A stretch of DNA of 64,000 bases, taken from Frankiales bacterium (GTDB lineage: Bacteria; Actinomycetota; Actinomycetes; S36-B12; CAIYMF01). Below the pieces are notes generated by a model. That model was given only the letters and a program-made list of their open reading frames with translations. It searched no databases and was not told the DNA's origin. The DNA lies in assembly GCA_016125335.1 (NCBI GenBank), contig WGLY01000025.1, forward strand, positions 62,001 to 126,000. The letters run 5' to 3'. Shown here piece after piece: positions 4,029 to 38,604 of the stretch (within the stretch, counting starts at the first letter, position 1; each line of letters begins with the position of its first letter). Both the position numbers and the translations under genes were made by a program.

Positions 4029-4105
4029 AACTGAAGTATCGTCCTGGGCGTGGCGTTCAATCCCGCCGGGGAGCGGGTTGTGACCTACGGAACACGAGTG
4101 GTCGT

Positions 4106-4426: not shown

Positions 4427-4433
4427 CGTCGGC

Positions 4434-4787: not shown

Positions 4788-4912
4788 GTCACGTCTCCTT
4801 CACCTGTCGTTCACCGACACACCTGGGACATTGACATTCGTCGATACGTTCCGCGAGGATGCTTCGACAGACGTCAATGTAGACGATCGTCGATGTAGAT
4901 GGAGTGGTGAGC
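4788..4912. promoter_or_regulatory. Divergent promoter and operator region of the arsenic locus
   Basis: This gap lies between the leftward arsR and the rightward arsI. It contains an inverted repeat ACATTGAC (4828-4835) / GTCAATGT (4873-4880), a perfect 10-bp palindrome GACGATCGTC (4882-4891) and short repeats of ATGTAGA. A TTGACA at 4831-4836 followed 18 nt later by GAGGAT is a possible rightward promoter. A TTGACG on the minus strand (4878-4873) could serve the leftward one. ArsR dimers bind such dyads, so binding here would block both transcripts. The exact promoter assignments are tentative. Confidence 0.65.
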
Positions 4913-5431: not shown

Positions 5432-5457
5432 CCACGACAGAGGACAGGAACCGCCCC

Positions 5458-6099: not shown

Positions 6100-6134
6100 T
6101 CCACCCAACCGCCCTTCCGCAGAGAGTGACCACT

Positions 6135-7519: not shown

Positions 7520-7572
7520 GTGTCCGGCTCCCACGGCGCTAGCGGGATGTCCGTGCGTCCCTCAGGCCTCAC

Positions 7573-8334
7573 ATGCAAGGAGATCTCGTGCTCGAGTCCG
7601 CACCGGTAGCCGTCGTGACCAGCGCAGCTGTGTCCCTGCCTCGTCGGTTGTTCGCCGAGGCGCTGGGCACTGCGCTGCTCGTGGCCGCCGTCGTCGGGTC
7701 GGGGATCATGGCTCAGCGACTCTCACCCACCGACACCGGGCTCGCACTGCTCGAGAACGCGATCGCCACAGGTGCGGTGCTGCTCGTTCTTATCGCCACG
7801 CTCGGCCCGATCAGCGGTGCGCACTTCAACCCGGTCGTCACGGCGGTGGATGCCTGGTTCGGCGGCATCGACCGCCGTGACATCGCCCCCTACGTGGTGG
7901 TTCAGGTCCTCGGCGCGTGCGCCGGCGCGATCCTCGCCAACCTCATGTTCGGGCTGTCCGCAGTGTCGATCTCCACCCACGATCGGACCGGCAGCGGGAT
8001 CCTGCTCTCCGAGGTGGTCGCCACATTCGGTCTACTGTGGGTGATCCTCGGCCTGGTCCGCGCCGGCCGGTCCAGTTGGATCGCCGCGTCGGTCGCCGCC
8101 TACATCGTCGGCGCCTACTGGTTCACCGCATCCACATCGTTCGCCAATCCGGCAGTCACCATCGGCCGAACCCTGTCGAACACCTTCGCCGGCATCGCCC
8201 CCGCGAGCGTGCCCGGCTTCGTCGTCGCGCAGTGCATCGGCGCCGTACTCGCCGTGCTCGCCACGGTTGTGCTCTGGCCCCGGCACTCGCCCTCCGGAGC
8301 GGTCGCCATCGACATCCACGAGGAGACCCGCTGA
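7573..8334 (+). CDS. aqpS: Aquaglyceroporin (MIP family), arsenite channel candidate
   Basis: A 253-residue six-span channel with the two half-helix signatures in MIP form: NPV at residues 86-88 (HFNPVV) and NPA at 192-194 (FANPAV). The Asn-Pro-Val variant and a glycine/arginine (TIGR) after the second motif resemble the AqpS/aquaporin Z-like proteins found in ars operons. AqpS of Sinorhizobium lets arsenite leave the cell down its gradient after arsenate reduction. The position between the reductases and ACR3 supports such a role here. ATG 7573 is followed by several in-frame GTG codons that could be alternative starts. Confidence 0.82.
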   Translation: MQGDLVLESAPVAVVTSAAVSLPRRLFAEALGTALLVAAVVGSGIMAQRLSPTDTGLALLENAIATGAVLLVLIATLGPISGAHFNPVVTAVDAWFGGIDRRDIAPYVVVQVLGACAGAILANLMFGLSAVSISTHDRTGSGILLSEVVATFGLLWVILGLVRAGRSSWIAASVAAYIVGAYWFTASTSFANPAVTIGRTLSNTFAGIAPASVPGFVVAQCIGAVLAVLATVVLWPRHSPSGAVAIDIHEETR

Positions 8335-8446
8335 CGGTGACGTGCCCGACTGCGCCCGCCATCGTGTTGGCGAACGGAGGAGACTGCTGACGACCACGCG
8401 ACAAGCACAAGGGTGCGCCGGTAGCGAGACGCACGGAGGAGGCCCG

Positions 8447-9550
8447 GTGAGCGACCACGGCGCGCCATCGACTCCGGCGTCCGCCGACGACGCGGTTCTC
8501 ACCCGGCTCTCGCGACTCGATCGGTTCCTGCCGGTGTGGATCCTGCTGGCGATGGCCGCGGGCCTGCTCATCGGCCGCACCTTCCCCGGCGTCCAGTCCG
8601 CACTCGACGCCGTCAAGGTCGGGCAGACATCGCTGCCGATCGCGCTCGGCCTGCTCTTGATGATGTACCCGGTGCTGGCAAAGGTCCGCTACGAGGACAT
8701 GGGCCACGTCACCGGCGACCGCAAGCTGCTGTGGCTCTCGCTGTTGCTCAACTGGGTCATCGGCCCGGCGCTGATGTTCGCCCTTGCCTGGATCTTCCTG
8801 GCCGACCAGCCCGAGTTCCGGACCGGGCTCATCGTGATCGGCCTGGCCCGATGCATCGCGATGGTCCTGATCTGGAACGACCTCGCCTGCGGCGACGGCG
8901 AGGCAGCGGCCCTGCTCGTCGCGCTGAACTCGGTGTTCCAGATCCTCGCCTACGCCCTGCTCGGCACGTTCTACCTCAAGATCCTCCCGGGCTGGCTCGG
9001 CCTGGACACCCAGATCGTGACGTTCTCCACCTGGGAGATCACCAAGGCCGTCCTGATCTTCCTCGGCATCCCCCTGCTCGCCGGCTACCTCACCCGCCGC
9101 ATCGGCCTGCGGACGAAGGGCCGTGACTGGTACGAGCAGAAGTTCATCTCGAGGATCAGCCCGTTCGCGCTCTACGGGCTGCTGTTCACCATCGTCGTGA
9201 TGTTCGCCCTGCAGGGCGACGCCATCACGTCGGACCCACTCGCCGTGGTCAGCATCGCGATCCCGCTGCTCGTCTACTTCGCCATCATGTGGGGCGTCTC
9301 CTTCCTCGCCGGCACCCGGTCTCACCTGGGCTACCCCAAGACTGCGACGCTCGCGTTCACTGCTGCCGGCAACAACTTCGAGCTCGCGATCGCCGTCAGC
9401 ATCGGTGTCTGGGGCGTCACCTCCGGACAGGCACTGGCCGGGGTGATCGGACCGCTGATCGAGGTCCCCGCCCTCGTCGCGCTCGTCTACGTGTCGTTGT
9501 GGCTGCGCCGCAAGTACTTCACCAAGCCCGTCATCCCCGCCACCACCTGA
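8447..9550 (+). CDS. acr3: ACR3-type arsenite efflux permease
   Basis: A 367-residue, ten-span transporter of the ACR3 (BASS superfamily) group. The residues known to be essential in ACR3 proteins are present: Cys136 in the span RCIAMVLIWNDLACGD, and Glu312 in AGNNFELAIAV. It extrudes As(OH)3 from the cytoplasm, alone by proton exchange or with ArsA as the energy source. ArsA and ArsD directly follow, which suggests an ATP-coupled pump. GTG 8447 is selected because a strong GGAGGAGG lies just upstream. Codons further upstream in the same frame are poor protein. Confidence 0.92.
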   Translation: MSDHGAPSTPASADDAVLTRLSRLDRFLPVWILLAMAAGLLIGRTFPGVQSALDAVKVGQTSLPIALGLLLMMYPVLAKVRYEDMGHVTGDRKLLWLSLLLNWVIGPALMFALAWIFLADQPEFRTGLIVIGLARCIAMVLIWNDLACGDGEAAALLVALNSVFQILAYALLGTFYLKILPGWLGLDTQIVTFSTWEITKAVLIFLGIPLLAGYLTRRIGLRTKGRDWYEQKFISRISPFALYGLLFTIVVMFALQGDAITSDPLAVVSIAIPLLVYFAIMWGVSFLAGTRSHLGYPKTATLAFTAAGNNFELAIAVSIGVWGVTSGQALAGVIGPLIEVPALVALVYVSLWLRRKYFTKPVIPATT

Positions 9551-9564
9551 GCAAGGAGCACCCT

Positions 9565-9972
9565 GTGCCCGCCATCCGCGTCTTCGAGCCCGCCCTGTGC
9601 TGCAACACCGGGGTCTGCGGCCCCGAGCTCGACCAGTCCCTGGTCGACTTCACCGCCGACCTGACCCACCTACAGACCCAGGGCGTCGACATCGCACGGC
9701 ACAACCTGGCCAACGACCCGATGGCGTTCGCCTCGGACGAGTCCGCGCGCGCGTTCCTGCAGGTCGCCGGCTCCGACGGCCTCCCACTGACCCTCGTCGA
9801 CGGCGTCACCGTGATGACCGGCACCTACCCGAGCCGCGCCCAGCTGCTGCGCTTCGCGGGCATCGCCGACGAGCAGCCGGTCACCCCCGCAGGAGCAGTC
9901 GGACTCGTCATGCTCGACGCCAGCACCGACGCCGCCGGCGAATGCGGTTGCGGCCCCGAAGGCTGCAGCTGA
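9565..9972 (+). CDS. arsD: ArsD arsenic metallochaperone
   Basis: A 135-residue ArsD with a thioredoxin-like fold. The arsenite-binding residues Cys12, Cys13 and Cys18 appear in LCCNTGVCG, exactly as in the enteric protein, and a second cysteine cluster Cys127, Cys129, Cys134 lies at the C-terminus. ArsD delivers As(III) to the ArsA ATPase and weakly represses its own operon. It begins 14 nt after acr3 with AAGGAG 6 nt before GTG 9565, and ends 5 nt before arsA, so the chaperone and the ATPase are made together. Confidence 0.93.
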   Translation: MPAIRVFEPALCCNTGVCGPELDQSLVDFTADLTHLQTQGVDIARHNLANDPMAFASDESARAFLQVAGSDGLPLTLVDGVTVMTGTYPSRAQLLRFAGIADEQPVTPAGAVGLVMLDASTDAAGECGCGPEGCS

Positions 9973-9977
9973 CCGCG

Positions 9978-11768
9978 ATGCGTTTCCTCACCGACCCGCC
10001 CCGTTTCCTGTTCTTCACCGGCAAGGGCGGCGTCGGCAAGACCTCCCTGGCCTGCGCCACCGCCCTGCACCTCGCCGAGCAGGGCAAGCGGGTCCTGCTG
10101 GTCAGCACCGACCCGGCGTCCAACGTCGGACAGGTCCTCGGCGTGAGTATCGGCAACACCATCACCGCGATCCCCGACGTCCCCGGCCTGACCGCGCTCG
10201 AGATCGACCCCGAAGCCGCGGCCGATGCCTACCGCGAGCGCATCATCGGACCAGTCCGCGGACTGCTCCCCGACAAGGAGATCGCCTCGATCACCGAGCA
10301 GCTCTCCGGGTCGTGCACCACCGAGGTCGCGTCCTTCAACGAGTTCACCGACCTGCTCGCCGACCCCGCCCTCACCGCGGCCTACGACCACGTCCTGTTC
10401 GACACCGCCCCCACCGGACACACCATCCGGCTGCTCCAGCTCCCCGGTTCGTGGACCGACTTCCTCGAGTCCGGCAAGGGCGATGCGTCCTGCCTCGGCC
10501 CGCTCGCCGGCCTGGACAAGCAGCGCGCGACGTATGCGGCCGCGGTGTCCGCGTTGAAGGACCCCGCCCGCACCAGGCTGATCCTGGTGACCCGAGCACA
10601 GGCCTCTGCCCTCGCGGAAGTGCACCGCACCTTCGGTGAGCTCGACCAGATCGGCATCCACGCCGCGCACCTCGTCGTCAACGGGATCCTCCCGGACATC
10701 GCGGGTGACGAACCACTCACTCTCGCGGTCCGCGACCGCGAGAGCGCCGCCCTGGCCGGCATGCCCGACGACGTCGCCGCCCTGACGCGCGACGCAATCG
10801 ACCTCAAGCCCGACAACATGATGGGCCTTCCTGCGCTGCGCTCACTGCTGACCTCGGACACCCCACCCGACACGGCGACGATGCCTACCGTCGAGGTCGA
10901 TCTGACCGGGCACTCGCTGGCCAGCCTCGTCGAGCAGATCGAGGCCGACGGCCATGGCGTCGTGCTGTGCATGGGCAAGGGCGGCGTCGGCAAGACCACC
11001 ATCGCCACCGCCATCGCCGTCGCACTGGCCCACCGAGGTCACGACGTCCACCTCGCCACGACCGACCCCGCCGCGCACCTCGACGAGACCCTCCACGGCG
11101 CCGTCGACCACATCACCGTCTCGCGCATCGACCCGGTCCAGGCCACCGCGGAGTACCGCGACCGGATCATGACGACCCGCGGGAAGAACCTCGACGACGC
11201 CGGACGCGCGAACCTCGCCGAGGACCTCCTCTCCCCCTGCACCGAGGAGGTCGCCGTCTTCCAGCAGTTCGCCCGCCTCGTCCTCGGAGCCAGCAAGCAG
11301 TTCGTCATCATCGATACCGCACCCACCGGCCACACCCTCCTGCTCCTCGACGCCGCCGGCTCCTACCACCGCGACGTCGCCCGCCAGATGGGCGAGACCA
11401 TGCACTACCGGACCCCCCTGATGGTCCTGCAGGACCCGGACCACACCAAGGTCGTCCTGGTGACCCTGCCCGAGCCCACACCGGTCATCGAGGCACGCGT
11501 GCTCCAAGACGACCTGCGCCGCGCCGGCATCACACCCTGGGCCTGGGTGGTCAACAACTCCGTCGCCGCCGCCGGACCCCAGTCACCCTTCCTGAAACAG
11601 CGCGCCGCAGCCGAGCTCGCGCAGATCACCGAGGTCGAGAACATCTCCGCTCGCATCGCAATCGTCCCCCTCCTGCCCGCCGAACCGATTGGCGAGGAGC
11701 GCCTCGGCGAATTGACGTTGGCCACCAGTCCCTTCCGCGATTGCCCTACGGGGGTGCTAGGCCCGTGA
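9978..11768 (+). CDS. arsA: ArsA arsenite-stimulated ATPase (two-half form)
   Basis: A 596-residue ATPase with two homologous halves, each with a deviant Walker A: GKGGVGKTS at residues 15-23 and GKGGVGKTT at 333-341. Each half also has a TAPTGHT switch II segment (DTAPTGHT). The metalloid-binding cysteines are visible in SGSCTTEVASF and LSPCTEEVAVF. It energises arsenite export by ACR3 and receives As(III) from ArsD, encoded immediately upstream. ATG 9978 is the first credible start after the arsD stop. It is the last gene of the rightward operon and faces the TauE gene across a 19-nt gap. No strong terminator hairpin is obvious there. Confidence 0.93.
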   Translation: MRFLTDPPRFLFFTGKGGVGKTSLACATALHLAEQGKRVLLVSTDPASNVGQVLGVSIGNTITAIPDVPGLTALEIDPEAAADAYRERIIGPVRGLLPDKEIASITEQLSGSCTTEVASFNEFTDLLADPALTAAYDHVLFDTAPTGHTIRLLQLPGSWTDFLESGKGDASCLGPLAGLDKQRATYAAAVSALKDPARTRLILVTRAQASALAEVHRTFGELDQIGIHAAHLVVNGILPDIAGDEPLTLAVRDRESAALAGMPDDVAALTRDAIDLKPDNMMGLPALRSLLTSDTPPDTATMPTVEVDLTGHSLASLVEQIEADGHGVVLCMGKGGVGKTTIATAIAVALAHRGHDVHLATTDPAAHLDETLHGAVDHITVSRIDPVQATAEYRDRIMTTRGKNLDDAGRANLAEDLLSPCTEEVAVFQQFARLVLGASKQFVIIDTAPTGHTLLLLDAAGSYHRDVARQMGETMHYRTPLMVLQDPDHTKVVLVTLPEPTPVIEARVLQDDLRRAGITPWAWVVNNSVAAAGPQSPFLKQRAAAELAQITEVENISARIAIVPLLPAEPIGEERLGELTLATSPFRDCPTGVLGP

Positions 11769-11787
11769 ACTGCAGCACTGCAACGGG

Positions 11788-12645
11788 TTACGCATGTCGC
11801 CAGACTTTGACGGCGGAGAAGAGCAGCAGTGCCACGATGAGCGGGACCAGGACGGCCTCGGAGACGACGCCGAGGAGGAGCGCCCCAAGGAACGTTCCCA
11901 GGATCGAGCCGCCGGCCATGACGGCGATGAAACTGGGGTGCTGCCCAAGAACGGTGAAGGCCTGGTCGCGGCTGTAGCCGAAGAACGCGACCAGCATTGT
12001 CGGCAGTGACACCAGCAGGGACAAGCTCCCCGCGAGCTTCGTGTCGACGCCGTAGAGCAGCACGATGGTGGGGATCAGGAGCTCGCCGCCCGCGACGCCC
12101 ATGATCGCGGCGACGACCCCGATGCCGAACCCCACAACGACCCCGGCCACGGCTTGTGCCACGGCGGGCAGGTTCAGTGTGGGGATCGCGCCGACATGCT
12201 CGGCGGCGAACACCGCGGCGATGCCGACGAGGAGGACCGCCAGCACCCGGTAGAGGGTGGCCGCGCGCATCCGGGTGGCCCATGACGCTCCCAGCCACGC
12301 GCCGACCAGAGAGCCGGCGAGCAGGTTGACCACGATCGACCAGTGGCTGGCGACATCGGCGAACGGGACCGCGAGAAGCCGGGACGGGATCGCGACCATC
12401 ACGACGATGAGGCTCATCGCCTTGTTGACGATGATGGCCTGCAGCGCGACGAACCCGAAGAGACCGATGAGCAGCGGCAGGCGGAACTCGGCACCGCCCA
12501 GTCCGACGAGGCCGCCGAGGAGACCGACGGCCGCGCCGGTCAGCCCGGCGAGCCAGAGCGGCCGGCCGACCACGTGGCTCGTCTCAGCGGCTCCTGAGCC
12601 GAGGTCGGCGGTCACGGCGACACAGTAGTGACCGGTCGGCCGCAC
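11788..12645 (-). CDS. TauE/SafE-family membrane transporter
   Basis: A membrane protein of up to 285 residues with about eight hydrophobic spans in two repeats: GLLGGLVGLGGAEFRLPLL near residue 40 and AAIMGVAGGELLIPTI near residue 180. This glycine-rich pattern is diagnostic of the TauE/SafE (DUF81) anion exporters. Family members move sulfite, sulfoacetate or other organosulfur anions. The substrate here is unknown. It is transcribed towards arsA and stands apart from both arsenic operons, so its link to arsenic is only by location. Start at ATG 12645 is the longest form. A GTG ten codons downstream (VTADLGSG) could be the real start. Confidence 0.8.
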   Translation of the reverse strand: MRPTGHYCVAVTADLGSGAAETSHVVGRPLWLAGLTGAAVGLLGGLVGLGGAEFRLPLLIGLFGFVALQAIIVNKAMSLIVVMVAIPSRLLAVPFADVASHWSIVVNLLAGSLVGAWLGASWATRMRAATLYRVLAVLLVGIAAVFAAEHVGAIPTLNLPAVAQAVAGVVVGFGIGVVAAIMGVAGGELLIPTIVLLYGVDTKLAGSLSLLVSLPTMLVAFFGYSRDQAFTVLGQHPSFIAVMAGGSILGTFLGALLLGVVSEAVLVPLIVALLLFSAVKVWRHA

Positions 12646-12704
12646 ATCGCCCGCCTCACCCCGCGCGACCTCAGTCGTTCACGGTGAGCGAGGCGTTCGG
12701 CACG

Positions 12705-13070
12705 CTAGGCGTCGATGACGACGGGGATGATGATCGGGTTGCGACGGCCGTTGTTCTGCGCCCATCGGCTGACGGTGCGGCCGATGATCTGCTTGAGCTG
12801 GTGGGTGTCGCCGATGCCTTCGGCCGCTGCCTTGGCCAGCGCTTTCTCGACGAGGGGGATGGCGGTGTCGAAGGTGTGCTGGTCGCGACCGAACCCGCGG
12901 GAGAGGAAGTCGGGCGGCTCGGCGAGGGCCCCGGTGTCGGCGTCGACGAGGGCGATGACGGTGATGACGCCCTCGGCGGCAAGGGTGCGGCGGTCGACGA
13001 GGGAGGCTTCGGTGATGTCGCCGACGGTGGAGCCTTCGACGTAGACGAGTCCGGCGGGGACCTTGCCGGT
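12705..13070 (-). pseudogene. Ribonuclease J remnant (C-terminal end only)
   Basis: Read on the minus strand, about 120 residues match the C-terminal part of RNase J. It starts at [16 protein letters not shown], continues through DRRTLAAEGVITVIALVD, and ends IIGRTVSRWAQNNGRRNPIIIPVVIDA-like (key blocks IGRTVSRW and RRNPIIIPVV). A full RNase J is about 550 residues with a metallo-beta-lactamase domain, and all of that is missing. Similarity stops abruptly near 13,070, where an oppositely oriented enolase fragment begins. The open frame continues upstream only as antisense of enolase. It is almost certainly non-functional. Confidence 0.75.
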
Positions 13071-13074
13071 CACG

Positions 13075-13296
13075 GTCGACGCGATGAGCATCTGCCACCG
13101 GGCCGGGTACGCGCAGATGGTCTCCCACCGCTCGGGCGAGACACCCGACACCTTCATCGCCGACCTCGCAGTCGCCACCGGCTGCGGCCAGCTCAAGACC
13201 GGCGCCCCCGCCAGGGGCGAGCGCGTCGCGAAGTACAACCGGCTCATCGAGATCGCGGCGACCCACCCGAACCTGCCGTATGGCCTCATGACCTGA
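13075..13296 (+). pseudogene. Enolase remnant (C-terminal end only)
   Basis: About 70 residues match the C-terminus of enolase: [17 protein letters not shown], then [21 protein letters not shown], then [15 protein letters not shown]. These contain the conserved SHRSGET loop and the KTGAP segment with the catalytic-site lysine. A full enolase is about 430 residues, and the first 350 or so are absent. Its truncated 5' end abuts the truncated 5' end of an RNase J remnant on the other strand. The chromosomal enolase is presumably elsewhere. This copy lacks most of the active site and should be inactive. Confidence 0.78.
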
Positions 13297-13328
13297 CCGG
13301 CAGGCGCTCGCGCCATCGGGAGGTAACC

Positions 13329-13751
13329 GTGGACGACGTTCTCGACCGAGGGGAACGCTTCGCGTTCCGGTCACCGCTTCGCACCCCGCTGCGGTTGCGT
13401 GTGCGACGTATGACTCCCGAACGGAGCGGAGTCACCGTTGGCGCGCAGACGGTGTGGGTGCAGGCGGGCACGTGGACGATGACGATCCGGTTCGAGGAGA
13501 TCGCCGCCGTCCGGGTGACCGAATGGCCCCCTCGAGCGCACGTCGGCGTGCATTACCTGCGACACGGGCGCTGGCTCGCGGCCGCCGCCCCGGGCCTACT
13601 GGCGACGCTGGACTTGGATCCCGTCGTGACGCCGACGACGGTCCCTCGCACGGCCCGCCTGGACCTCGGCCTCGCCGACCCCGAACGGTTCGTCAGCTGC
13701 CTCACGCCGCGACTGTCCAGCGATCACCGGACGCCGGACGCAGGAGGTTAG
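13329..13751 (+). CDS. Hypothetical protein, 140 residues
   Basis: Not recognised. GTG 13329 is preceded by GGGAGGTAACC, a strong ribosome site, and the frame is open for 140 residues, so it is probably a real gene. The protein is soluble and basic at first (PLRLRVRRMTPERSG). It has a possible beta-rich middle (VTVGAQTVWVQAGTWTMTI) and ends with an acidic stretch (LDLGLADPERFVSCL). There is no signal peptide, membrane span or cofactor motif. The alternating beta pattern is reminiscent of PH-like domains of actinobacterial membrane-associated proteins, but this is only an impression. It sits between the enolase stump and the toxin-antitoxin pair. Confidence 0.55.
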   Translation: MDDVLDRGERFAFRSPLRTPLRLRVRRMTPERSGVTVGAQTVWVQAGTWTMTIRFEEIAAVRVTEWPPRAHVGVHYLRHGRWLAAAAPGLLATLDLDPVVTPTTVPRTARLDLGLADPERFVSCLTPRLSSDHRTPDAGG

Positions 13752-13983
13752 AACCCCAGCACCGACGCTGGGTCAGCGTCCTCTTCGTACCCGCCGTCGT
13801 CAGGTTGTCTCGACCGTGAGCACAGCCCCCAGGCCTCAGTTGTCAGACCGTCGATCGGCACTCACCTTGCACTGGCCGCCTTGACCAGCGCTCACCCGAT
13901 TGCAGATGTCCCGATGTCATCACTGATCAATCGCTCGATCGGTGAAGCGCGGTTGACGTCGCTGACTGATCAAGGCATTCTCT

Positions 13984-14001
13984 GATACGACATCTCGTAT
14001 C
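13984..14001. promoter_or_regulatory. Inverted repeat operator before the XRE/nucleotidyltransferase pair
   Basis: GATACGA (13984-13990) and TCGTATC (13995-14001) are perfect inverted arms with a 4-nt spacer, ending just before the AAGGAG ribosome site of the HTH gene. This is the expected place for an autoregulatory antitoxin operator. The 260-nt gap 13752-14011 holds no other feature that can be supported, and it looks less GC-rich than its surroundings. Confidence 0.6.
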
Positions 14002-14011
14002 AAGGAGCCTC

Positions 14012-14587
14012 ATGTCGGCGTCGTCACTGCTGCGCACCGCGCGTCACTCGCGTGGTGTGTCGCAGCGTGCGCTAGCCCAGGCAGCGCACGTGAGCCAGCC
14101 GGGCATCGCCGCCCTCGAGTCGGGGGCACACGACACGACCTTCGACCGGCTCGAGCTGCTCCTAGTGCCGCTCGGCCAACGCGTATCTCTGCTCCCGACG
14201 CGATCCCGACCGGTGTGGCAGGTCGCGGTCGACCTTCGCGCCGCCCTTGATGCGGGTGACGACAAGCGGGCATGGCGCGAGATCATCCAGTGCTCCGACG
14301 ACCTTGCTCGCGAGACGTACGCGACGCGGGTGGCGCTGGCGGTCACGCAGCCGCTGCCGGTCGGAGACGCACGCTACGACGCTCTCCTCGCCGCTGTAAC
14401 TGACTACCACCTGAGCCGCGACGCGCTGCCCCGACCGCTCTGGCTCGACCTTCCCGACTATCGGCTTGCCGATCCGTGGGATGTCGAGGCGGTCCCGTCG
14501 CTGCGCGACCAGGCACGACACGACACCCCGCCGGCCATCGCCCGGCACGGGGTGTTCCTCGCCGCGGTTGAGTTCGAGAGCGTGTGA
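14012..14587 (+). CDS. XRE-type HTH protein, probable antitoxin
   Basis: A 191-residue protein with an N-terminal XRE helix-turn-helix (residues 5-60, core SQRALAQAAHVSQPGIAALESG) and a C-terminal helical region of unknown fold. Its last base overlaps the start of the following nucleotidyltransferase gene (TGATG), so the two are translationally coupled. HTH protein plus nucleotidyltransferase is a common toxin-antitoxin layout (AbiE/MenTA-like or DUF6036-linked systems). The perfect dyad in front of the gene fits autorepression. ATG 14012 with AAGGAG 6 nt upstream is a clear start. Confidence 0.75.
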   Translation: MSASSLLRTARHSRGVSQRALAQAAHVSQPGIAALESGAHDTTFDRLELLLVPLGQRVSLLPTRSRPVWQVAVDLRAALDAGDDKRAWREIIQCSDDLARETYATRVALAVTQPLPVGDARYDALLAAVTDYHLSRDALPRPLWLDLPDYRLADPWDVEAVPSLRDQARHDTPPAIARHGVFLAAVEFESV

Positions 14588-15111
14588 TGGCCGTCCTGCT
14601 CAGTCACGACGACGTCGAGATGCTCCTCCGAGAGCTCGCAGGACGGCTGCACACCGAAGGAGTCACCGCTGGCATCCGCATTGTCGGAGGCGCAGCGATC
14701 GCCCTGATGAACGCCGACCGGCGGTCCACGGCCGACATCGACGCGGTGCTGCTGCCCGCCGCACCGGTGCGCGCCGTAGCGGCCACGATGGCAGCTGAGC
14801 GGGACCTGCCCGCGGACTGGCTCAACGACGCCGCGATGGCCTACGTCCCGCTCCTCGGACTCGACGACTGGCACGAGATCTTCCGCGTCGGCGACGTCAC
14901 CGTGTCTGTCGGCTCTGTCCAGATGCTGCTCGCGATGAAGCTGCGCGCCAACCGTGGACGACGCGACACCGACGACATCGAATACCTCCTCGGACGTTGC
15001 GACGTGAACTCCGTGCAGGACGCCCAAGAGATCTACGAGCGCTACCACGCCCAGGACGTCCTGACGGACTCAGCCGTCACACGCGTCCAGACGTGGCTCA
15101 ACGCCCGCTGA
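14587..15111 (+). CDS. Nucleotidyltransferase-fold protein, probable toxin
   Basis: A 174-residue protein of the minimal nucleotidyltransferase fold (DUF6036/AbiEii-like). The catalytic pattern is visible: Gly34-Gly35 in VGGAAIALMNADRR and the acidic pair Asp50-x-Asp52 in STADIDAV. The motif MLLAMKLRANRGRRDTDDIEYLL follows, typical of this group. Such toxins transfer nucleotides to tRNA or other targets. The target here is unknown. It overlaps the HTH gene by one base and is presumably neutralised by it. On a mobile element the pair may act in maintenance or in phage defence, which is inference. Confidence 0.75.
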   Translation: MAVLLSHDDVEMLLRELAGRLHTEGVTAGIRIVGGAAIALMNADRRSTADIDAVLLPAAPVRAVAATMAAERDLPADWLNDAAMAYVPLLGLDDWHEIFRVGDVTVSVGSVQMLLAMKLRANRGRRDTDDIEYLLGRCDVNSVQDAQEIYERYHAQDVLTDSAVTRVQTWLNAR

Positions 15112-15355
15112 GCCCCCAGCAACCTGTCACGGCACGCGCGAACGTCAGACAACTTTCGAGGCCCTCTTTGACGAGGCATGTCGTCCACGTCAATCCGCCC
15201 GTGTCCACGACGCGCCACCCCGGGGCTACCTGTTCGTCACACGCGTTTCGTGACGGCCACCTGCCATGAATCGAAGCAGACATGTGCATCGGCGGCGTGT
15301 ACCGTCTGGCCCTGATTCTACTGTGGCACAACAGGTTTCCGGGTTGTGATGTTTC
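15112..15355. other. Gap before the relaxase, candidate oriT region
   Basis: There is no gene in these 244 nt. CGTCAC (15235-15240) and GTGACG (15250-15255) form a small inverted repeat, and short AT-richer stretches follow up to the relaxase start. MobF relaxases usually nick an oriT close to their own gene, often beside such a repeat, so this gap is one of two candidate sites. No nic sequence can be recognised. Confidence 0.35.
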
Positions 15356-18300
15356 GTGTTGTCCAGTGCGAAGATCGGCCGGTCCTCCTGGCGGTACTAC
15401 TCGCGCACCGTCGCCGGTGGTGCGTGTGAGTACTACGCCGAGCACGGCGACGCCCCCGGCCGCTGGCACGGCTCCGGCCTCGCGCAGCTCGGGCTGACTG
15501 TCGGTGCGAGGGTGGAGGAGCGCGAGCTCGAGGCGCTCTTCGGCCGTGCCTTGTCTCCGACGACAGGTTCCGCGTTGGGGTCGGCGTGGCGCGCGGATGC
15601 GGTGACCGGGTTCGACTTGACGTTCTCCGCCCCCAAGTCCGTGTCCACCCTGTGGGCGCTCGGCGATGCCCGCACGATGGCCGCTGTCGATGCCGCTCAC
15701 GGGGCCGCGGTGAGCGCGGCGCTCGGCTACCTGGAGGCGCATGCGTCGTTGTCGCGGCGCGGCCGCGACGGCGTCGAGCAGATCGGGTCCGCTGGGTTCA
15801 CGGCGGCCCTGTTTGACCATCGGACGTCGCGGACCGGGGACCCTCAGCTGCACACCCACGCCCTGGTGGTGAACAAGGTCCGCTGCGACGACGGTGCGTG
15901 GCGCACGTTGGACGGGCACGAGATCTACCACCACAAGAAGGCCGCCGGTGTGGTCTATCAGGCCGCGCTGCGGGCGGAGCTGACAACGCGGTTGCCGGTG
16001 GTGTTCGGGGCGGTGTCCGAGCATGGCCAGGCCGAGATCCAGGGGGTCCCCGAGGCGTTGATGTCGGCGTGGTCGTCGCGGACGTCGGCGGTGATGGCCG
16101 ACGCGGTCCCGACCATCGCCGACGCCGAGTCCGCCCTCGGCCGCCCGGTGTCGGCTGGGGAGCGGGCCAGGATCATCAAGACCGCCGTCCTGGCCACCCG
16201 GCCGGCCAAGGACGCGCCCGTTCCTGAGGGGGACCGTCGGGCGCGGTGGGCGGCGCAGGCAGCCGGGTTGGGGTTCGGGGCGGACGCGGTGACGGACGCC
16301 GTCTCGTCCGCCCACCGTGCGGCGCCCCGGCTGCGGCCGGTGCCGGGGTGGGAGCACGCGGTGGTGGCGGACGCGGTGACGGACATCGGGCGACGCAAGG
16401 CGATGTGGTCCCGTGCCGACCTGACCACCGCGATGGCCGCGAGGATCTCGACCGCTGGGATCACCGCCCCCACCACTGCGGCGGGGGCGGTCGCGTTGGT
16501 GGAGGTCCTCACCGACACCGCCCTGACCCGGGTCGAGATCTCCGGCGCCGTCGAGCTCGGCACCGAGCGGTCGGGCGTGACCGCGCGGGCGTCGGACGCG
16601 AGGTTCGCGTCCCGGGAACTGGTGGACACGGAAGCGCGGATCGTGGAGCGCGCTGTCGCCGAGGGGTTCCGTACACCGGACCGGCTACCTCGGGAGTTCC
16701 TCGCCGCCTTGTATGACGGGCCCTGCGCCGCGTTGAGCGCCGATCAGCGGGCCGCGGTGGTGCGCCTGGTCGCGTCCCGGGACCTCGTCACGGTGATGAC
16801 CGCACCGGCCGGGGCGGGGAAGACCACGACGTTGGCGGTCGCGGTCGCCGCGTGGCACTCGATGGGGATGCAGGTCACCGCGCTCGCCCCGTCGGCGCGG
16901 GCGGCATCGGAGCTGTCGGACGCGACCGGGGCACCCGGTCAGACCGTGGCGCGGTGGCTGCTCACCCACGACCACCTCGACGACCCGGAGCGGGCCAGGC
17001 ACCGGTTGCGGTTCCTCCCACCGCGGGAGGTGGTCATCGTCGATGAGGCGTCGATGTTGTCCACCGCGGACCTCGACCGCCTCACCGCCAGGGCCGTGAA
17101 CACCGGGTCACCGCTGGTCCTGGTCGGTGACCCCGCCCAGATCGGTGCGGTGAATGCACCCGGGGGCATGTTCGAACACCTCACCCACACCCTCGGCGGG
17201 CAAGTCATCGAGCTGACCGAACTCCACCGATTCACCCACCCGTGGGAGGCCGCCGCAACGCTGCGGCTGCGCGCCGGCGACTCCACCGTCCTGGACACCT
17301 ACGCCGAGCACGGCCGGGTCCACCCCGAGGCCTCCAGCGAGGACGCCGCGGACGCGGTGTTCGACCGGTGGCGCACCGCCACCGACCACGGTGCCGACGC
17401 CCTCATGCTCGCGCGGGCGTGGACCGACGTGAACGCGCTGAACGCCCGGGCCCGCGCCGTCGCCGTCGCGACCGGTCAGGTCACCGGACCGGACCTGGTG
17501 AGGGTGGCGACACGGTCGGCGTCGACCCGCGGCCAGCTCGAGGACCGCACGTGGCGGGCCGGGGACGTGCTGATCGCGAAGAAGAACACCGCCCGCATCC
17601 CCATCGGTGCCGACACCCTGCGCAACGGGGACCGCTTCCGTGTCGTGGCCGCCAACGACGCCGGTGGCCTCGTCGTGACGGACCTCCGCGGGAGGGGCAC
17701 GACCACCTTGCCGCACGGGTATCTCGCGGCGCATGCGGCGTACGGGTGGGCTGCCACCATCGACGGCGCCCAGGGCGCGACCGCCGACATCGGCATCGTC
17801 CTGGCCCGCAGTGGGCTTGATCGCGAGCACCTCTACGTCGCGATGACCCGCGGCCGCCTGGAGAACCACGTCCACACCACCCCGGAACTCGTCACCGGAG
17901 ACGCCGGCCCGCACCACCACCCATCGACACGAACCGGCACGGCGGCCAGGGCATGGCCAGACCGGCGGCAACCCCACCCCACGCATGGCCAGACCCGCGG
18001 CAAGGGTGCGGACAGGCCCCCGGCATGTGTCCAGCTGCCACTTCCGGACCTTGACAGTGCGCTCGCGCAGCTCGCCCGCGCCGTCGCGACCAGCGGGCGC
18101 GAACGCGCCGCGCACTCCCTGCTCGACCCGCCCGTGCAGGTAGCACGGGAAGCGGCCTGGGCCAAGGCCGACGCTGCACAACCGGGCCGGCAGGTCCCCG
18201 TCGAGCACCGCCGCCACCAAGCCGACCTCGACCGCGCCCGCGACGAACGCGACCGCGCCCGACGCCACCTCGACCGGCTCGCCGGCGAGCTCCGCACCGC

Positions 18301-31898: not shown

Positions 31899-34610
31899 TC
31901 AGCGCGTGTCGGAGCCCGCGGCCTCCAGCGCCGCCCGACCGGCCTCGAGCCGTGCCACAGGGACGCGGAACGGCGAGCAGGAGACGTAGTCGAGCCCCAC
32001 CCGGTGGAAGAAGTGCACCGACTCCGGGTCGCCGCCGTGCTCGCCGCAGACGCCGAGCTTGAGGTCGGGCCGGGTGCGCCGGCCCTCCTGTGCGGCGATC
32101 TCCACGAGCCGGCCGACCCCGTCCTCGTCGAGGGACTCGAACGGCGACACCGTGAACACGCCCTTGTCGAGGTAGGCCGCGAAGAACTCGGCCTCGACGT
32201 CGTCGCGCGAGAAGCCCCACGTGGTCTGGGTGAGGTCGTTGGTGCCGAAGGAGAAGAACTCCGCGACCTCCGCGATGCGGTGGGCGGTCAGGGCGGCCCG
32301 CGGCAGCTCGATCATCGTGCCCACCGGGATGTGCAGGTCGACGCCCTCGCGTGCGGCGATCTCGTGCACGATGCCGTCGGTCTCGTCCGCGACGAGGTGC
32401 AGCTCCATCACCGAGCCGACGAGCGGCACCATGATCTCGACGCGGGGATCGCCGCCGTCCTTGATCCGCTGGGCCGCGGCCTCGGCGATCGCGCGCACCT
32501 GGAGCCCGAACAGACCCGGGACGACGAGCCCGAGCCGCACGCCGCGCAGGCCGAGCATCGGGTTGGACTCGTGCAGCCGCTCGACCGCGGCCAGCAGGGC
32601 GAGCTCCTTGGTGTCCGGCTTGCCCTCCGCGTGCGCCACCGCCACCCGCACGGACAGCTCCGTGTAGTTCGGCAGGAACTCGTGCAGGGGCGGGTCGAGC
32701 AGGCGGATCGTGACCGGAAGTCCGTCCATCGCCTCGAGCAGCTCGTAGAAGTCCTTGCGCTGCAACGGGAGCAGGGCGGCCAGGGCGAAGTCGCGGTCCT
32801 CGCCGGACTCGGACAGGATCACCCGCTCGATGAGCACCCGGCGGTCGCCGAGGAACATGTGCTCGGTGCGGGTCAGCCCGATCCCCTGGGCGCCGAGGTG
32901 CCGGGCGCGCAGCGCGTCCTCGGCGGTGTCGGCGTTCGCACGGACCAGCAGGCGACGCGTGTCGTCCGCGTGCTTCAGCAGGCGGTCGACCGAGCGCACG
33001 AGCTGCTCGGTCTCCGGGTCGGCGTCGGCCACCGCGTGGTCGACGCCGTGCTCGAGGTAGGTCACGACCGGCGACGGGCGCACCGGCACCTCGCCCAGGA
33101 AGACCTCGCCCGTGGATCCGTCGATGGACACGACGTCGCCCTCGAGCAGGGTGACGTCGTCGATGCGGGCCATCTTGGCCGCGGCGTCGACGTCGATCTC
33201 CTCGGCGCCGCAGACGGCGGTCTTGCCCATGCCGCGCGCGACGACCGCCGCGTGGCTGGTCTTGCCGCCGCGCGAGGTGAGGATGCCGGCGGAGGCGATC
33301 ATGCCCTCGAGGTCGTCGGGGTTGGTCTCCTTGCGCACGAGGATGACGTCCTCGCCGCGCGCGGCCCAGGCGACCGCGGTCGCGGAGTCGAACACGGCCC
33401 TGCCCACCGCCGCGCCGGGCGAGGCGGCCATGCCCTTGGCCACCAGCGTGCGCGGGGTGCCCGAGTCGAACTGCGGGAACATCAGCTGCGCGAGCTGTGC
33501 GCCGGTCACCCGCTCGAGCGCCTCGTCCTCGGTGATGAGGTGCTCGTCGACGAGCTGGGTCGCGATGCGGAAGGCCGCCGCGGCCGTGCGCTTGCCGACG
33601 CGGGTCTGCAGCATCCACAGCTTGCCGCGCTCGATCGTGAACTCGATGTCGCACAGGTCGCGGTAGTGGGTCTCGAGCCGGCGCATCACGGTCATCAGCT
33701 CGGCGTGGGCCGCGGGGTCGAGCTCGCCCAGGTCGTCGAGGCTGAGCGTGTTGCGGATGCCGGCCACGACGTCCTCGCCCTGGGCGTTGACGAGGTAGTC
33801 GCCGTAGACGCCGGGCGCGCCGGTGGAGGGGTCGCGGGTGAACGCGACCCCGGTGCCGCTGGTCTCGCCGAGGTTGCCGAACACCATGGTGCAGATGTTC
33901 ACCGCGGTGCCGAGGTCGTGCGGGATCCGCTCGCGGCGCCGGTAGATGCGGGCACGGTCGGTGTTCCACGAGTCGAACACCGCGCGGATCGCCTCGTCGA
34001 GCTGCTCGCGCGGGTGCTGCGGGAAGTCGCGCCCGGTCTCGTCGCGCACGATGTCCTTGAACCGCTGCACGAGCGCCATGAGGTCGGTGACGTCGAGGTC
34101 CACGTCGGACACGACGCCGCGGGCGGCCTTGGCCTTGTCGAGCGCGTCGGAGAACAGGTCGCCCTCGACGCCGAGCACGGTCTTGCCGAACATCTGGATG
34201 AGCCGGCGGTAGGAGTCCCACGCGAAGCGGTCGCTGCCCGAGGCCTCCGCCAGGCCGATCACCGAGGCGTCGTTGAGCCCGATGTTGAGGACCGTGTCCA
34301 TCATGCCGGGCATCGAGAACTTGGCGCCGGACCGCACGCTCACCAGCAGCGGGTCGTGACGGTCGCCGAGGCGACGGTCGACGGCGTCCTCGAGGTGGCG
34401 CAGCGACTTGGTGACCTGCACCCGCAGGTCAGCCGGCTCCTTGCCGTTGGCGAGGTAGGCACGGCAGGCGTCCGTGGTGATCGTGAAGCCCGGCGGCACC
34501 GGCAGCCCGAGGCGGGTCATCTCGGCGAGGTTCGCGCCCTTGCCGCCGAGGAGGTCCTTCATGTCCTTCGAGCCCTCGGAGAAGTCGTAGACGTACTGCG
34601 TGCCGGGCAT
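31899..34610 (-). CDS. ppdK: Pyruvate, phosphate dikinase
   Basis: A 903-residue enzyme of normal length interconverting pyruvate + ATP + phosphate and PEP + AMP + PPi. The N-terminal nucleotide-binding domain has GGKGANLAEMTRLGLPVPPGF (core GGKGANLAEM) and SVRSGAKFSMPGMMDTVLNIG (core SGAKFSMPGMMDT). The swivelling phosphohistidine domain has GGKTSHAAVVARGMGK with His453. The C-terminal PEP-binding barrel has GTNDLTQTTWGFSRDD and the catalytic cysteine in GVCGEHGGDP. ATG 34610 has GGAGGCACTC upstream. It would support gluconeogenesis or PPi-linked glycolysis. A tandem TetR regulator is divergently transcribed and may control it. Confidence 0.96.
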   Translation of the reverse strand: MPGTQYVYDFSEGSKDMKDLLGGKGANLAEMTRLGLPVPPGFTITTDACRAYLANGKEPADLRVQVTKSLRHLEDAVDRRLGDRHDPLLVSVRSGAKFSMPGMMDTVLNIGLNDASVIGLAEASGSDRFAWDSYRRLIQMFGKTVLGVEGDLFSDALDKAKAARGVVSDVDLDVTDLMALVQRFKDIVRDETGRDFPQHPREQLDEAIRAVFDSWNTDRARIYRRRERIPHDLGTAVNICTMVFGNLGETSGTGVAFTRDPSTGAPGVYGDYLVNAQGEDVVAGIRNTLSLDDLGELDPAAHAELMTVMRRLETHYRDLCDIEFTIERGKLWMLQTRVGKRTAAAAFRIATQLVDEHLITEDEALERVTGAQLAQLMFPQFDSGTPRTLVAKGMAASPGAAVGRAVFDSATAVAWAARGEDVILVRKETNPDDLEGMIASAGILTSRGGKTSHAAVVARGMGKTAVCGAEEIDVDAAAKMARIDDVTLLEGDVVSIDGSTGEVFLGEVPVRPSPVVTYLEHGVDHAVADADPETEQLVRSVDRLLKHADDTRRLLVRANADTAEDALRARHLGAQGIGLTRTEHMFLGDRRVLIERVILSESGEDRDFALAALLPLQRKDFYELLEAMDGLPVTIRLLDPPLHEFLPNYTELSVRVAVAHAEGKPDTKELALLAAVERLHESNPMLGLRGVRLGLVVPGLFGLQVRAIAEAAAQRIKDGGDPRVEIMVPLVGSVMELHLVADETDGIVHEIAAREGVDLHIPVGTMIELPRAALTAHRIAEVAEFFSFGTNDLTQTTWGFSRDDVEAEFFAAYLDKGVFTVSPFESLDEDGVGRLVEIAAQEGRRTRPDLKLGVCGEHGGDPESVHFFHRVGLDYVSCSPFRVPVARLEAGRAALEAAGSDTR

Positions 34611-34711
34611 GAGTGCCTCCGGGCGTCCTCGTGGCGGCGGCGCGGCTGCGTGGCCGCGTCCTTCGTCACGACGCTAGTGATGCAACCGCTTCCGTTTCCT
34701 GGCCGCTTCAC

Positions 34712-34738
34712 CTGGTGGCACGTGATCCGTGCCACCAG
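34712..34738. promoter_or_regulatory. Operator-like palindrome between ppdK and the tandem TetR gene
   Basis: CTGGTGGCAC (34712-34721) and GTGCCACCAG (34729-34738) are perfect 10-bp arms with a 7-nt spacer. A single CTGGTGGC half-site recurs about 100 bp to the right. The position between two divergent genes, one a TetR-type regulator, suggests autoregulation. Confidence 0.55.
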
Positions 34739-34915
34739 CGGACACGCTCCCGGACGGGGGTGTCGACGGCCGACGCCGCGGCCGACGTCCTCGATGGACC
34801 GCTCGCTCCGGTGAATGGGCGCGTTCCGCTGGTGGCGGCCCTACGAGGGACGTAGCCTCGGACCCGTCCCCGACCCTGCCGGAGGGTCGGCCCGTGCCAC
34901 GAGGAGCCGTGCCAG

Positions 34916-36274
34916 GTGCCGCCGAAGACCGAGCGCAGGCATCGTCAGGGGGCCGAGTCCCGCCAGCGGATCCTGGAGGCGGCGCTCGAGATCGCCGCGG
35001 AGCGCGGCTACGACGGCATGACCGTCGCATCGGTGACCGAGCGCACGGGTCTGCCGGCGTCCTCGGTCTACTGGCACTTCCGCAACAAGGACGCGCTGGT
35101 GGCCGAGACGCTGGAGTACAGCTACGAGCGCTGGCTGGTCTCCTCGCTGACCTGGCCCCAGGAGGAGGCCGGCCTCGAGCCGCTCGAGCGGCTGCGCCGC
35201 CGCCCGCGGCTCAACCACGAGCGCCTCGCCGCCCAGCCGGAGTTCTGGCGCATCGGGCTCATGCTCGGCCTGATCGACCCGCCGCAGCCGATCGCCGGCC
35301 GCGACCGCTACCTCGAGGTGAGGGCGCAGGCGCAGGCGCGCACCCTCGCCTGGGTGGGCGAGCAGCTGCCGGCCACGCTGCGCAGCCGCCGTCCCGACCT
35401 CGTCCTGCATCTCGCGCAGCTGCTGACCGCCTGCACCGACGGGCTGTTCCGGGCCGACCAGGCCGGCCGCGAGTGGGACTTCGGCCGGCTGGCCGACGAC
35501 GTCGGCGCGGCTCTGGCCGTCTACAGCCAGAGCCCGCCCGGGCGGCGGTCCCGGCGCACGCCCACCGGCCACCGGCACCAGTCCGCCACGCGCGAGCTGC
35601 CCGCGGACTCCCGCGACCGGCTGCTCGCCGCCACGTCGCAGATCGCCGCCGAGCGCGGCTACATCGGCGCCACGATCTCCGCCATCTGCGACCGCTCGGG
35701 CCTGCCCGTGAGCTCGCTCTACTGGTTCTTCAGCGACAAGGACGAGCTCATCTCCGAGGTCGTCGACCGCAGCTTCCGGCAGTGGCGCCAGAACCAGGGA
35801 CGGTGGACGCCGTCGGACTCGCGCAACCGGGTGCGCACGCTGCGGCGCGTGCTGCGCCGGGCGGCGCACGCGCTCGACGTCGACGCGCCGGACTTCCTGC
35901 GGATCGGGATGCTCGCGACGCTCGACCACCACGACGGCGAGACCTCCGTGCGCAGCCGGTTCCTCTCGATCCGGCGCGCCTCCGAGGACCAGCTGGCCGC
36001 GTGGTGGACGAGCACTCTCACCGACGAGCAGCGGGCGGCGGACCCCGACGTCGGTCGCGAGCTCGCCCAGCTGGTGCTCGCGTTCATGGACGGGCTGTTC
36101 CTCGGCCGGCGCATGGACGAGTGGGACCACGACACCGACACCTTCGTCGAGGGCGTCATCGCGCTCCTCGAGATCGTGCTCCAGCAGCGCACCGGCGCCA
36201 CCGACCTGCGCGACCGCCTCGCCGCGCCTCTCCCGGAGCGCGAGGGCGCCGAGCCCGAGGAAGCCTCGGCCTGA
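34916..36274 (+). CDS. Tandem TetR-family regulator (two TetR units in one chain)
   Basis: A 452-residue protein made of two TetR proteins in series. The first HTH covers residues 15-62 (RILEAALEIAAERGYDGMTV, VTERTGLPASSVYWHFRNKDAL) and the second 232-280 (RLLAATSQIAAERGYIGATI, ICDRSGLPVSSLYWFFSDKDEL). Each is followed by a ligand-binding type C-terminal domain containing LxxLxxAxxDGLF (QLLTACTDGLF, QLVLAFMDGLF). A linker of about 25 basic residues (GRRSRRTPTGHRHQ) joins them. Usual TetR proteins are 190-230 residues and dimerise. This chain is an internal pseudo-dimer. GTG 34916 follows GAGGAGCC. The target is unknown, with ppdK and its own promoter the nearest candidates. Confidence 0.88.
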   Translation: MPPKTERRHRQGAESRQRILEAALEIAAERGYDGMTVASVTERTGLPASSVYWHFRNKDALVAETLEYSYERWLVSSLTWPQEEAGLEPLERLRRRPRLNHERLAAQPEFWRIGLMLGLIDPPQPIAGRDRYLEVRAQAQARTLAWVGEQLPATLRSRRPDLVLHLAQLLTACTDGLFRADQAGREWDFGRLADDVGAALAVYSQSPPGRRSRRTPTGHRHQSATRELPADSRDRLLAATSQIAAERGYIGATISAICDRSGLPVSSLYWFFSDKDELISEVVDRSFRQWRQNQGRWTPSDSRNRVRTLRRVLRRAAHALDVDAPDFLRIGMLATLDHHDGETSVRSRFLSIRRASEDQLAAWWTSTLTDEQRAADPDVGRELAQLVLAFMDGLFLGRRMDEWDHDTDTFVEGVIALLEIVLQQRTGATDLRDRLAAPLPEREGAEPEEASA

Positions 36275-37270
36275 TCAGGCACCCGTCCTGGGCCGGGGCG
36301 CCGCGTCACGGTTCCGCCGGCGCCGCCGGCGCAGGGTGCGGACGAAGCCACCCGCGGCGACGGCACCGGCCGAGACGAAGAGGAAGCCTCCCAGGTCCCT
36401 GGGGTGGAGGCCCTCGATCGCCACGCGGCCGGGATCCGCGGCATCGACACGGACCTCGACCACGTCGCCGACGGGGAGGTCGGCGACGCCACCGAGGTCG
36501 ACGCACCGGGCGGCCGGCGAGGACCCCTCGGCGCCGCCCGAGCCGTCCTGGGCCAGGGCGAGGCAGACGTAGGAGGTCTGCGCTCCTCGTGCAGTCGAGT
36601 GCGTGGAGTCGGAGGTCACCACGGCGGACGAGGGCACGCCGTCGTGCTGAAGGACCCAGTCCAGATACGTGGTCTCCCCCGAGCCTCCGGCGAGCACGAC
36701 CAGCACGACGAAGGCGATGGCCACACCCCGGTAGCCGACGGTCGAGCCGACTGCTCGGGCTCCGGCGACCGCTGCCAGCCGGTCCCGCTCCACGTCCGTC
36801 AGCTCGGCACCCACGTCGCCCAGCAGACGGGCGACAGCCATGACGAGCGGGTCGGTGGCGTCTCCGCCCGGAGTCCTGAGCATCACCCGTCCGCCGTCGA
36901 GATCCGTCAGCAGGAGGACCGTGCCCGCCGTCCGACCCTGGGAGAATGTCGGCGACACCTGCACGGACGCGAGCCGGTCGAGATCGCAGCGGACCCTCGT
37001 CGGCCAGGTCCGGACCAGTACCGACCCGGCCAGGGTGAACCGCGGAGTGATCAGCGGCAGCAGCAGTGCCAGGCCGCCGAGCGTCGCTGCCACCCACCCC
37101 AGCAGCACCTGTCTCGGCGGCAGCACGATGAGGACGTACGCCGACAGGAGGAACAGGCATCCCACGACGGCGGATGCCGCACGCCCGCGCCAACCCATAG
37201 GACCGACGACCTGGTGAACCCCGGACCGCCGCGCGTCCTGTCCCCCGCGCATGGACCCATGCTGCCGCAT
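36275..37270 (-). CDS. Membrane protein of unknown function
   Basis: A 331-residue protein with paired hydrophobic segments near residues 30-75 (GCLFLLSAYVLIVLPPRQVLLGW), one near 180-195 (GVAIAFVVLVVLAGG) and one near 300 (LGGFLFVSAGAVAAGGFV). A cytoplasmic PH-like section is suggested by VRCDLDRLASVQVSP. The C-terminus is a basic RRRRRRNRD tail. Two cysteines in YVCLAL and ARCVDL may form an external disulfide. Similarity to any named family is not apparent. ATG 37270 has GGAG at good distance. Its last base meets the stop of the TetR gene with no gap. Confidence 0.65.
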   Translation of the reverse strand: MRQHGSMRGGQDARRSGVHQVVGPMGWRGRAASAVVGCLFLLSAYVLIVLPPRQVLLGWVAATLGGLALLLPLITPRFTLAGSVLVRTWPTRVRCDLDRLASVQVSPTFSQGRTAGTVLLLTDLDGGRVMLRTPGGDATDPLVMAVARLLGDVGAELTDVERDRLAAVAGARAVGSTVGYRGVAIAFVVLVVLAGGSGETTYLDWVLQHDGVPSSAVVTSDSTHSTARGAQTSYVCLALAQDGSGGAEGSSPAARCVDLGGVADLPVGDVVEVRVDAADPGRVAIEGLHPRDLGGFLFVSAGAVAAGGFVRTLRRRRRRNRDAAPRPRTGA

Positions 37271-37331
37271 CTGCGCTCCGGCGTTCCCCGCCCCGGCGCC
37301 GTCCTGACGCCGGCCTGCCGGCGACGACCGC

Positions 37332-38522
37332 TCAGCCGCCGGAGACGGAGAGCTCAGCGGCGCTGATGTCGGCGAGGAACCCGTCGAGGTCGTCGGGGTC
37401 GTCGAGCCAGCCGTCCGGCAGGGCCACCCGCTTGCCGGGCTGCGTGCGCCCGCGCGGGCCCTCGGACACCTCGCCGGGCCAGGGCTGGTCGAGGTCGAGC
37501 TCGGCGAGGTACCCGTCGATCTCCTCGAGGCTGCTCGCCATGGCCAGGCCCTGGCGCAGCTCGCGGCGGACGGCGAACCCCTTGAGGTACCAGGCGATGT
37601 GCTTGCGGAAGTCGCGCGGGCCGCGCTCGGGCCCGAGCACCTCCGCGAGCAGCGCCGCGTGATGGTGCATCACCTCGGCCACGGTGCGCAGCCCGGGGTC
37701 GGCGGGGACAGGGAGGCCGGAGAAGTCCGCGGCGAGCTGGCCGAACAGCCACGGCCGGCCCAGGCACCCGCGGCCGACGACGACGCCGTCCGCGCCGGTC
37801 TGCTCCACCATGCGGCGCGCGTCGCGGTGGGTCCAGATGTCGCCGTTGCCGAGCACCGGCACCCCGTAGGGCGCGAGCTCCTCGACCAGCCGCGCGATCG
37901 CCGTCCAGTCCGCCGTGCCGCCGTAGAGCTGGCTCGCGGTCCGGCCGTGCAGCGCCACCCAGGCGGCCCCCTCCTCGGCGGCGGCGCGACCGGCCTCGAG
38001 GTAGGTGAGGTGCTCGGGGTCGACGCCGGTGCGCATCTTGACGGTGACCGGCACCGGTTCGCGACCCACGGCCCGCGCCGTGTCGTCCGCGGTGCGGACC
38101 GCCTCGCGCACGATCGCCCGGAACAGCCCGCGCTTCCACGGCAGGGCGCTGCCGCCGCCCTTGCGGGTGACCTTGGCGACCGGGCAGCCGAAGTTCAGGT
38201 CGACGTGGTCCGCACGGTCCTCGGCCACGAGCAGGCGCACCGCCGCCCCCACGGTGGCCGGGTCGACCCCGTAGAGCTGGACGCTGCGCGGCGACTCGTC
38301 GGGGTCGGTGGCGATCATCGCCATGGTCTCGTCGTTGCGCTCGACCAGGGCGCGCGAGGTGATCATCTCGGTGACGTAGATGCCAGTGGCCGATCCGGAG
38401 GTGGCGCTGCGCGCCTGCTCGCGGGCCAGCCGGCGGAAGGCGCGGTTGGTGATGCCGGCCATCGGGGCGAGCACCACCGGGACGCCGCCGCGCCGGAGCA
38501 GCTCGTGGCCGGGAGAGGTCAT
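37332..38522 (-). CDS. dusB: tRNA-dihydrouridine synthase
   Basis: A 396-residue flavoenzyme. The TIM barrel starts [18 protein letters not shown]. The tRNA- and FMN-binding motifs are [20 protein letters not shown] (core NFGCPVAKV) with its catalytic Cys, then [23 protein letters not shown] (core HGRTASQLY), and VLGNGDIW with [13 protein letters not shown]. It reduces uridines in tRNA. The protein has a C-terminal helical extension, normal for actinobacterial DusB. Start at ATG 38522. A longer in-frame start exists but adds nothing family-like. The neighbours are unrelated. Confidence 0.93.
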
Positions 38523-38604
38523 GGGCCCATTGTCGTGCATCGACGCAGGCACCTGGCGACGGCGACCGGACGGCCGTCCCCGCGCGAGACCCGCGCCCCG
38601 TGGC

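Follow-up and report, generated by a model that had tools for sequence, protein, structure and literature searches.

The gene at positions 34,916-36,274 of the window, a 64,000-nucleotide stretch of contig WGLY01000025.1 from a Frankiales bacterium, encodes two TetR modules in one 452-residue chain, and its product is probably an old pair of duplicated subunits joined head to tail, in which one chain serves as an asymmetric, DNA-binding, ligand-released dimer similar to Mce3R. A TetR protein normally recognizes a palindrome as a homodimer with subunits of about 200 residues, and to our knowledge double TetRs are uncommon and, Mce3R apart, have received little study. The tandem protein would instead fold as an asymmetric dimer from one chain, with two helix-turn-helix (HTH) units and one shared dimer interface. 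This single-chain pseudo-dimer would most likely bind its control region and act as a repressor, with release by a small ligand that occupies one C-terminal pocket or both.

The tandem TetR gene lies on the forward strand as an open reading frame that begins with GTG and ends with TGA. In all nine successive 150-base blocks, third-position GC is 0.92-1.00, and neither the reading frame nor this block-wise measure revealed a stop or break at the module junction. A sequence-only reading had proposed two TetR regulators in one chain, open to the objection that an overlooked stop or frameshift splits the gene; none was found, and the proposal was borne out by the intact frame, two TetR_N domains, and two C-terminal domains. 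The protein matches Pfam TetR_N (PF00440) in two stretches with 92.3 bits against a cut-off of 24. The first 212 residues align to the rest with 62 of 176 positions identical (35%, E 5e-32), and the halves are therefore duplicates of one ancestral TetR. The window's own genome carries a single full-length copy, together with 11 short, weak matches, as expected for other TetR genes. No NCBIfam TetR subfamily model reached its cut-off (best NF041196, 88.2 bits vs 150).

The N-terminal module (residues 1-208; 34,916-35,539, forward strand) runs in the AlphaFold2 model from helix H4-30 to helix H189-205 and includes the TetR_N/HTH domain, for which the best PF00440 stretch is residues 19-64 (34,970-35,107, forward). 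The C-terminal module (residues 232-426; 35,609-36,193, forward) has its helix-turn-helix at residues 254-271 (35,675-35,728, forward; model helices H254-261 and H265-271), within which C258, S266, S267, Y269, and W270 are invariant across 18 aligned fused proteins. Between the modules is a low-confidence linker (about residues 206-231; 35,531-35,608, forward) that lacks helix, has block pLDDT means of 53 and 69, and is rich in R, K, and H, in agreement with the basic linker originally described. An all-helical C-terminal ligand/dimer domain is present, according to AlphaFold2 secondary structure and PDB matches spanning whole modules. The tandem TetR of the window is a well-formed, otherwise ordinary regulator.

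A search for homologues with the same tandem organization recovered full-length fused relatives that share the start position and two-module layout of the window protein. At the thresholds used, matches occurred in 4 of 17 genomes of the window's family, all in the window's genus, where the tandem gene is found in 4 of 11 genomes; in 9 of 394 genomes of the class; in 15 of 147 genomes of the genus of Nocardioides ferulae; and in 15 of 250 genomes of the family of an Actinomadura genome. A scan of named genomes gave 29 loci, comprising 2 fused genes in Nocardioides, 11 split pairs in Actinomadura, and 16 short-stretch matches to ordinary TetRs. The classed loci, a set that leaves out 22 loci repeating the same place or genome stretch, show four arrangements: a single gene, a split pair, a fused gene, or two adjacent fused genes. 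The last was observed in genomes G007 (locus L008) and G011 (locus L007), where the two genes encode four TetR modules in two chains. One Nocardioides genome (G402) has both a fused and a split copy. At 19 of the 20 split loci, which include near-identical strains, the in-frame start of the second gene overlaps the stop of the first (RTGA); the remaining locus, L085, has a longer overlap. Because the second gene of these loci is in another frame, fusion was not a simple read-through, and fusion or fission needed a frame change.

Module trees, quick trees made without bootstrap, point to an old common origin of the split and fused forms. The trees exclude the exact duplicates L018 and L079, as well as L078, and the 88-row tree also excludes L047, which has a very long branch. 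In that tree, one branch (SH-aLRT 98) sets 35 C modules apart and another (SH-aLRT 65) does so for 35 N modules; the 90-row tree gave similar groupings, and support for the N grouping is modest in both trees (65 with 88 rows, 84 with 90 rows). The five labels of the 90-row tree (fused N, fused C, split N, split C, and single) require five changes against a minimum of four, and the fused/split label in the 88-row tree changes once on N rows and twice on C rows. As N modules group with N modules and C with C over split and fused forms, one old duplication must predate the split/fused difference, supporting the proposed origin by duplication of the homologous halves. The N and C modules appear to have travelled together since then, a single duplication accounting for both forms, and this joint history is the chief ground for supposing that they pair. 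The split relatives, with their separate overlapping genes, likewise point to halves that function as a matched pair.

Operator-like sequences were found beside many of these relatives. Palindromes resembling CTGTAGYGATCRCTACAG lie beside the split pairs and beside half of the single-gene relatives, and the consensus CTGKAGYGATCRCTMCAG was read from these two groups. Scoring it on the same split loci is partly circular, and on that footing it occurs with at most two mismatches upstream of 19 of the 20 split loci (L059 fails), none of 300 shuffles being as good in each case. Nine of 18 single loci carry it at up to three mismatches. Upstream of fused genes, 15 of 17 loci have nothing better than five mismatches, the exceptions being L047 (three) and the window (four). 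In the fused Nocardioides loci, which are mostly close relatives, at least one site with three or fewer mismatches occurs in 12 of 12 loci, compared with 0.21 expected in all. Two of these sites in L013 (7877 and 7946) shortly precede an IclR gene, and in L012 and L013 a site precedes a gene that shares 55% identity with a PF08028 flavin-dependent-monooxygenase-like gene. The Actinomadura split loci have two CTGKAGYGATCRCTACAG sites 21 bp apart; a further site near 7.33-7.35 kb was found in the three that were scanned whole (L014, L016, and L022), and in L014 this site lies 33 bases before the flavin reductase start.

The gene neighbors of these relatives bear on what they control. The Actinomadura pairs lie beside a branched-chain-type ABC transporter and a flavin reductase, the single relative L048 is beside FAD monooxygenase and FAA-hydrolase genes, and CoA-transferase, thiolase-like, IclR, and MFS genes are near the fused gene in G007 or G011. 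Together with the operator-like sites, these neighbors indicate that the relatives probably control catabolic genes, among them a flavin-dependent monooxygenase, a flavin reductase, and an IclR regulator. In the window's lineage, those catabolic partner genes are gone.

The sequence-only reading had also held that a covalent pseudo-dimer allows two different half-sites to be read together. This idea is weakly supported: the recognition helices of the two modules of the window protein are nearly identical (LPASSVYWHF and LPVSSLYWFF), and the operator-like sites of the split relatives are near-palindromic with one arm less regular. The sole hint of half-site asymmetry is a more variable left arm in Actinomadura.

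In the window's genus, the palindrome is nearly absent: four loci totalling 71 kb contain one site with three mismatches, compared with 0.22 expected, and none with two or fewer, so the operator there must differ. The best match to the split-family palindrome near the window gene (34,794-34,811) has four mismatches, with 5 of 300 shuffles as good, and is not claimed as its operator. A different candidate, at 34,712-34,738 between the divergent ppdK and tandem TetR genes, consists of two 11-bp arms in perfect inverted repeat around a 5-bp spacer, CTGGTGGCACG-TGATC-CGTGCCACCAG; the split relatives have near-palindromes with one variable arm. When the 305-base intergenic region was shuffled 1000 times with its dinucleotides kept, 11-bp arms were reached in 4 shuffles. 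The repeat is the sole copy in its own genome at up to three mismatches and has no match in ten genomes of the same genus at up to two; a regulon search with it gave three matches in other genomes of the genus, each with three mismatches and not above the reversed control. Seen in one genome, the repeat beside ppdK is a suggestive candidate and the only one in the window's lineage.

The position of this repeat bears on the target of the protein. The divergent neighbor ppdK (pyruvate phosphate dikinase by Pfam; 31,899-34,610, reverse strand) is a putative target by location, and a tentative alternative, limited to the target and compatible with a single-chain asymmetric dimer, is that the tandem TetR is mainly a local regulator of ppdK. 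The two genes form a divergent pair in the window and in G006, and the perfect repeat adjoins a conserved part of the ppdK upstream sequence that is retained in G010, a genome in which both the tandem gene and the repeat are absent. However, ppdK is present in all 11 genomes of the genus and the tandem gene in four, about 7.8 kb separates the two in G007, and an IclR gene intervenes in G011. Regulation of ppdK as the ancestral role was rejected as unproven, ppdK being universal in the genus and the tandem gene not.

The surroundings of ppdK also argue against a fixed partnership. The interval from ppdK to dusB (31,899-38,552) is a variable slot in the genus, its other border being the tRNA-dihydrouridine synthase gene dusB (Pfam Dus; 37,332-38,552, reverse). 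Six genomes that lack the tandem gene have a gap of about 0.26-1.7 kb between the two, with the value near 0.26 kb in two genomes; the gap measures 2.7 kb in the window and reaches 7.7 kb in G006. Six ppdK-flanking stretches from genomes that lack the gene held no remnant of it at E 1 or below. Because the slot varies in content, the adjacency of the tandem TetR and ppdK is probably positional. In the window, the slot also holds a convergent gene of 331 amino acids (36,275-37,270, reverse) with a DUF3592-like Pfam match below cut-off and no homologue in the neighborhoods compared. An HbpS-like gene (PF03928) follows the fused gene in G006, G007, G011, and Nocardioides oceani; in G010, the slot holds an HbpS-like gene on its own (L113, 265-720), without the tandem gene, and the window keeps the tandem gene without an HbpS-like gene. 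Elsewhere in the window, positions 1-16,000 have a GC content of about 0.69, compared with 0.72-0.76 in the rest, and contain frames that by eye resemble ArsR-type regulators and transporters; this part is possibly acquired DNA.

Structure prediction, a check suggested at the outset, bears on how the two modules pair. The AlphaFold2 model, a single-chain prediction made from the 18 aligned fused proteins, has a mean pLDDT of 87.6 and a pTM of 0.88, is weakest at the linker and the ends, and packs both halves as one unit. When the model was compared with the PDB by VIA-align, the top match was the whole chain of Mce3R (9b7y_A; Z 24.8, 376 of 385 residues, rmsd 5.5 Å, 17% identity), and all other listed matches were single TetRs covering one module with Z of 13.7 or less; Foldseek also ranked 9b7y first (E 1.5e-7). 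The predicted halves are arranged as in the Mce3R protomer, an intrachain pseudo-dimer (Z 24.8, rmsd 5.5), in a single-chain model that fits pairing of N and C within one chain and an equivalent interchain arrangement alike. The covalent pseudo-dimer originally proposed is supported by this model, the whole-chain match, and the split and fused relatives, and we infer that N and C of the window protein pair within one chain.

An unlikely alternative is symmetric pairing between two chains, in which N contacts N and C contacts C, to make a two-headed regulator bridging two different palindromic operators. In its favor, both modules are complete TetRs, there are relatives with one domain that would be homodimers, and the Actinomadura loci have two sites 21 bp apart. 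Against it stand the structural match to Mce3R over the whole chain, the intrachain pairing of the Mce3R halves described in the available text of PMC11667970, the pTM obtained for one chain, and the strict retention of N and C together in split forms. Poorer still are the prospects of a protein in which one half is a non-binding scaffold or pure sensor, leaving one HTH per chain and a conventional dimer of chains: the C module of the window does lie on a long branch (1.03 in the 90-row tree), but both HTHs retain the same kind of invariant residues in the 18 aligned fused proteins and are predicted at high confidence. An assembly artefact or misread junction is hardly conceivable, given continuous codon-position GC over the junction and independent fused homologues in other genomes.

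The preferred reading, a single-chain asymmetric dimer, has a precedent in Mce3R (Rv1963c, PDB 9b7y), the "double TFR" of M. tuberculosis. As described in the available text of PMC11667970, one Mce3R chain forms an asymmetric TetR fold with a four-helix bundle within the protomer and reads a non-palindromic site, and such protomer units form a dimer. The same text terms double TFRs infrequent and cites 204 predicted in actinomycetes; with this number and a solved structure, the unusualness at first ascribed to the window protein is tempered. Both proteins have two TetR modules per chain, similar length, and non-identical halves, yet they share 17% identity and the window gene has other neighbors. 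The Mce3R halves M1 and M2 are assigned in that text to distinct TFR subgroups, whereas the window halves are recognizable duplicates.

Orthology with Mce3R, or membership in its sequence subfamily, was not supported: Mce3R gained 54 bits from the family profile, fewer than the 97 bits of two single TetRs. These are the M. tuberculosis proteins AcrR (6a4l) and Rv0302 (5d18), which give the best PDB sequence matches to either module but have one module of about 200 residues per chain and, by the general rule for TetRs, act as homodimers. Engineered single-chain Tet repressors likewise place two TetR domains in one polypeptide but, according to the available text of PMC1797012, were man-made from Tn10 TetR. 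In the open literature searched, a limited library in which absence is unproven, only papers on Mce3R reported a naturally occurring double TetR or a TetR pair with split and fused forms. The architecture is thus already known through Mce3R, and the window lineage looks, from sequence comparison, to be separate from it.

The part worth following is the series of single, split, and fused forms. The chances are about even that one actinobacterial lineage has persisted as single genes, a translationally coupled obligate-heterodimer pair, a fused pseudo-dimer, and a four-module doublet, passing from homodimer to asymmetric repressor with a fusion independent of that of Mce3R. Because the family provides single, split, and fused versions of one pair along with candidate operators, the path from a homodimer through a heterodimer to a single-chain asymmetric repressor is open to direct testing.
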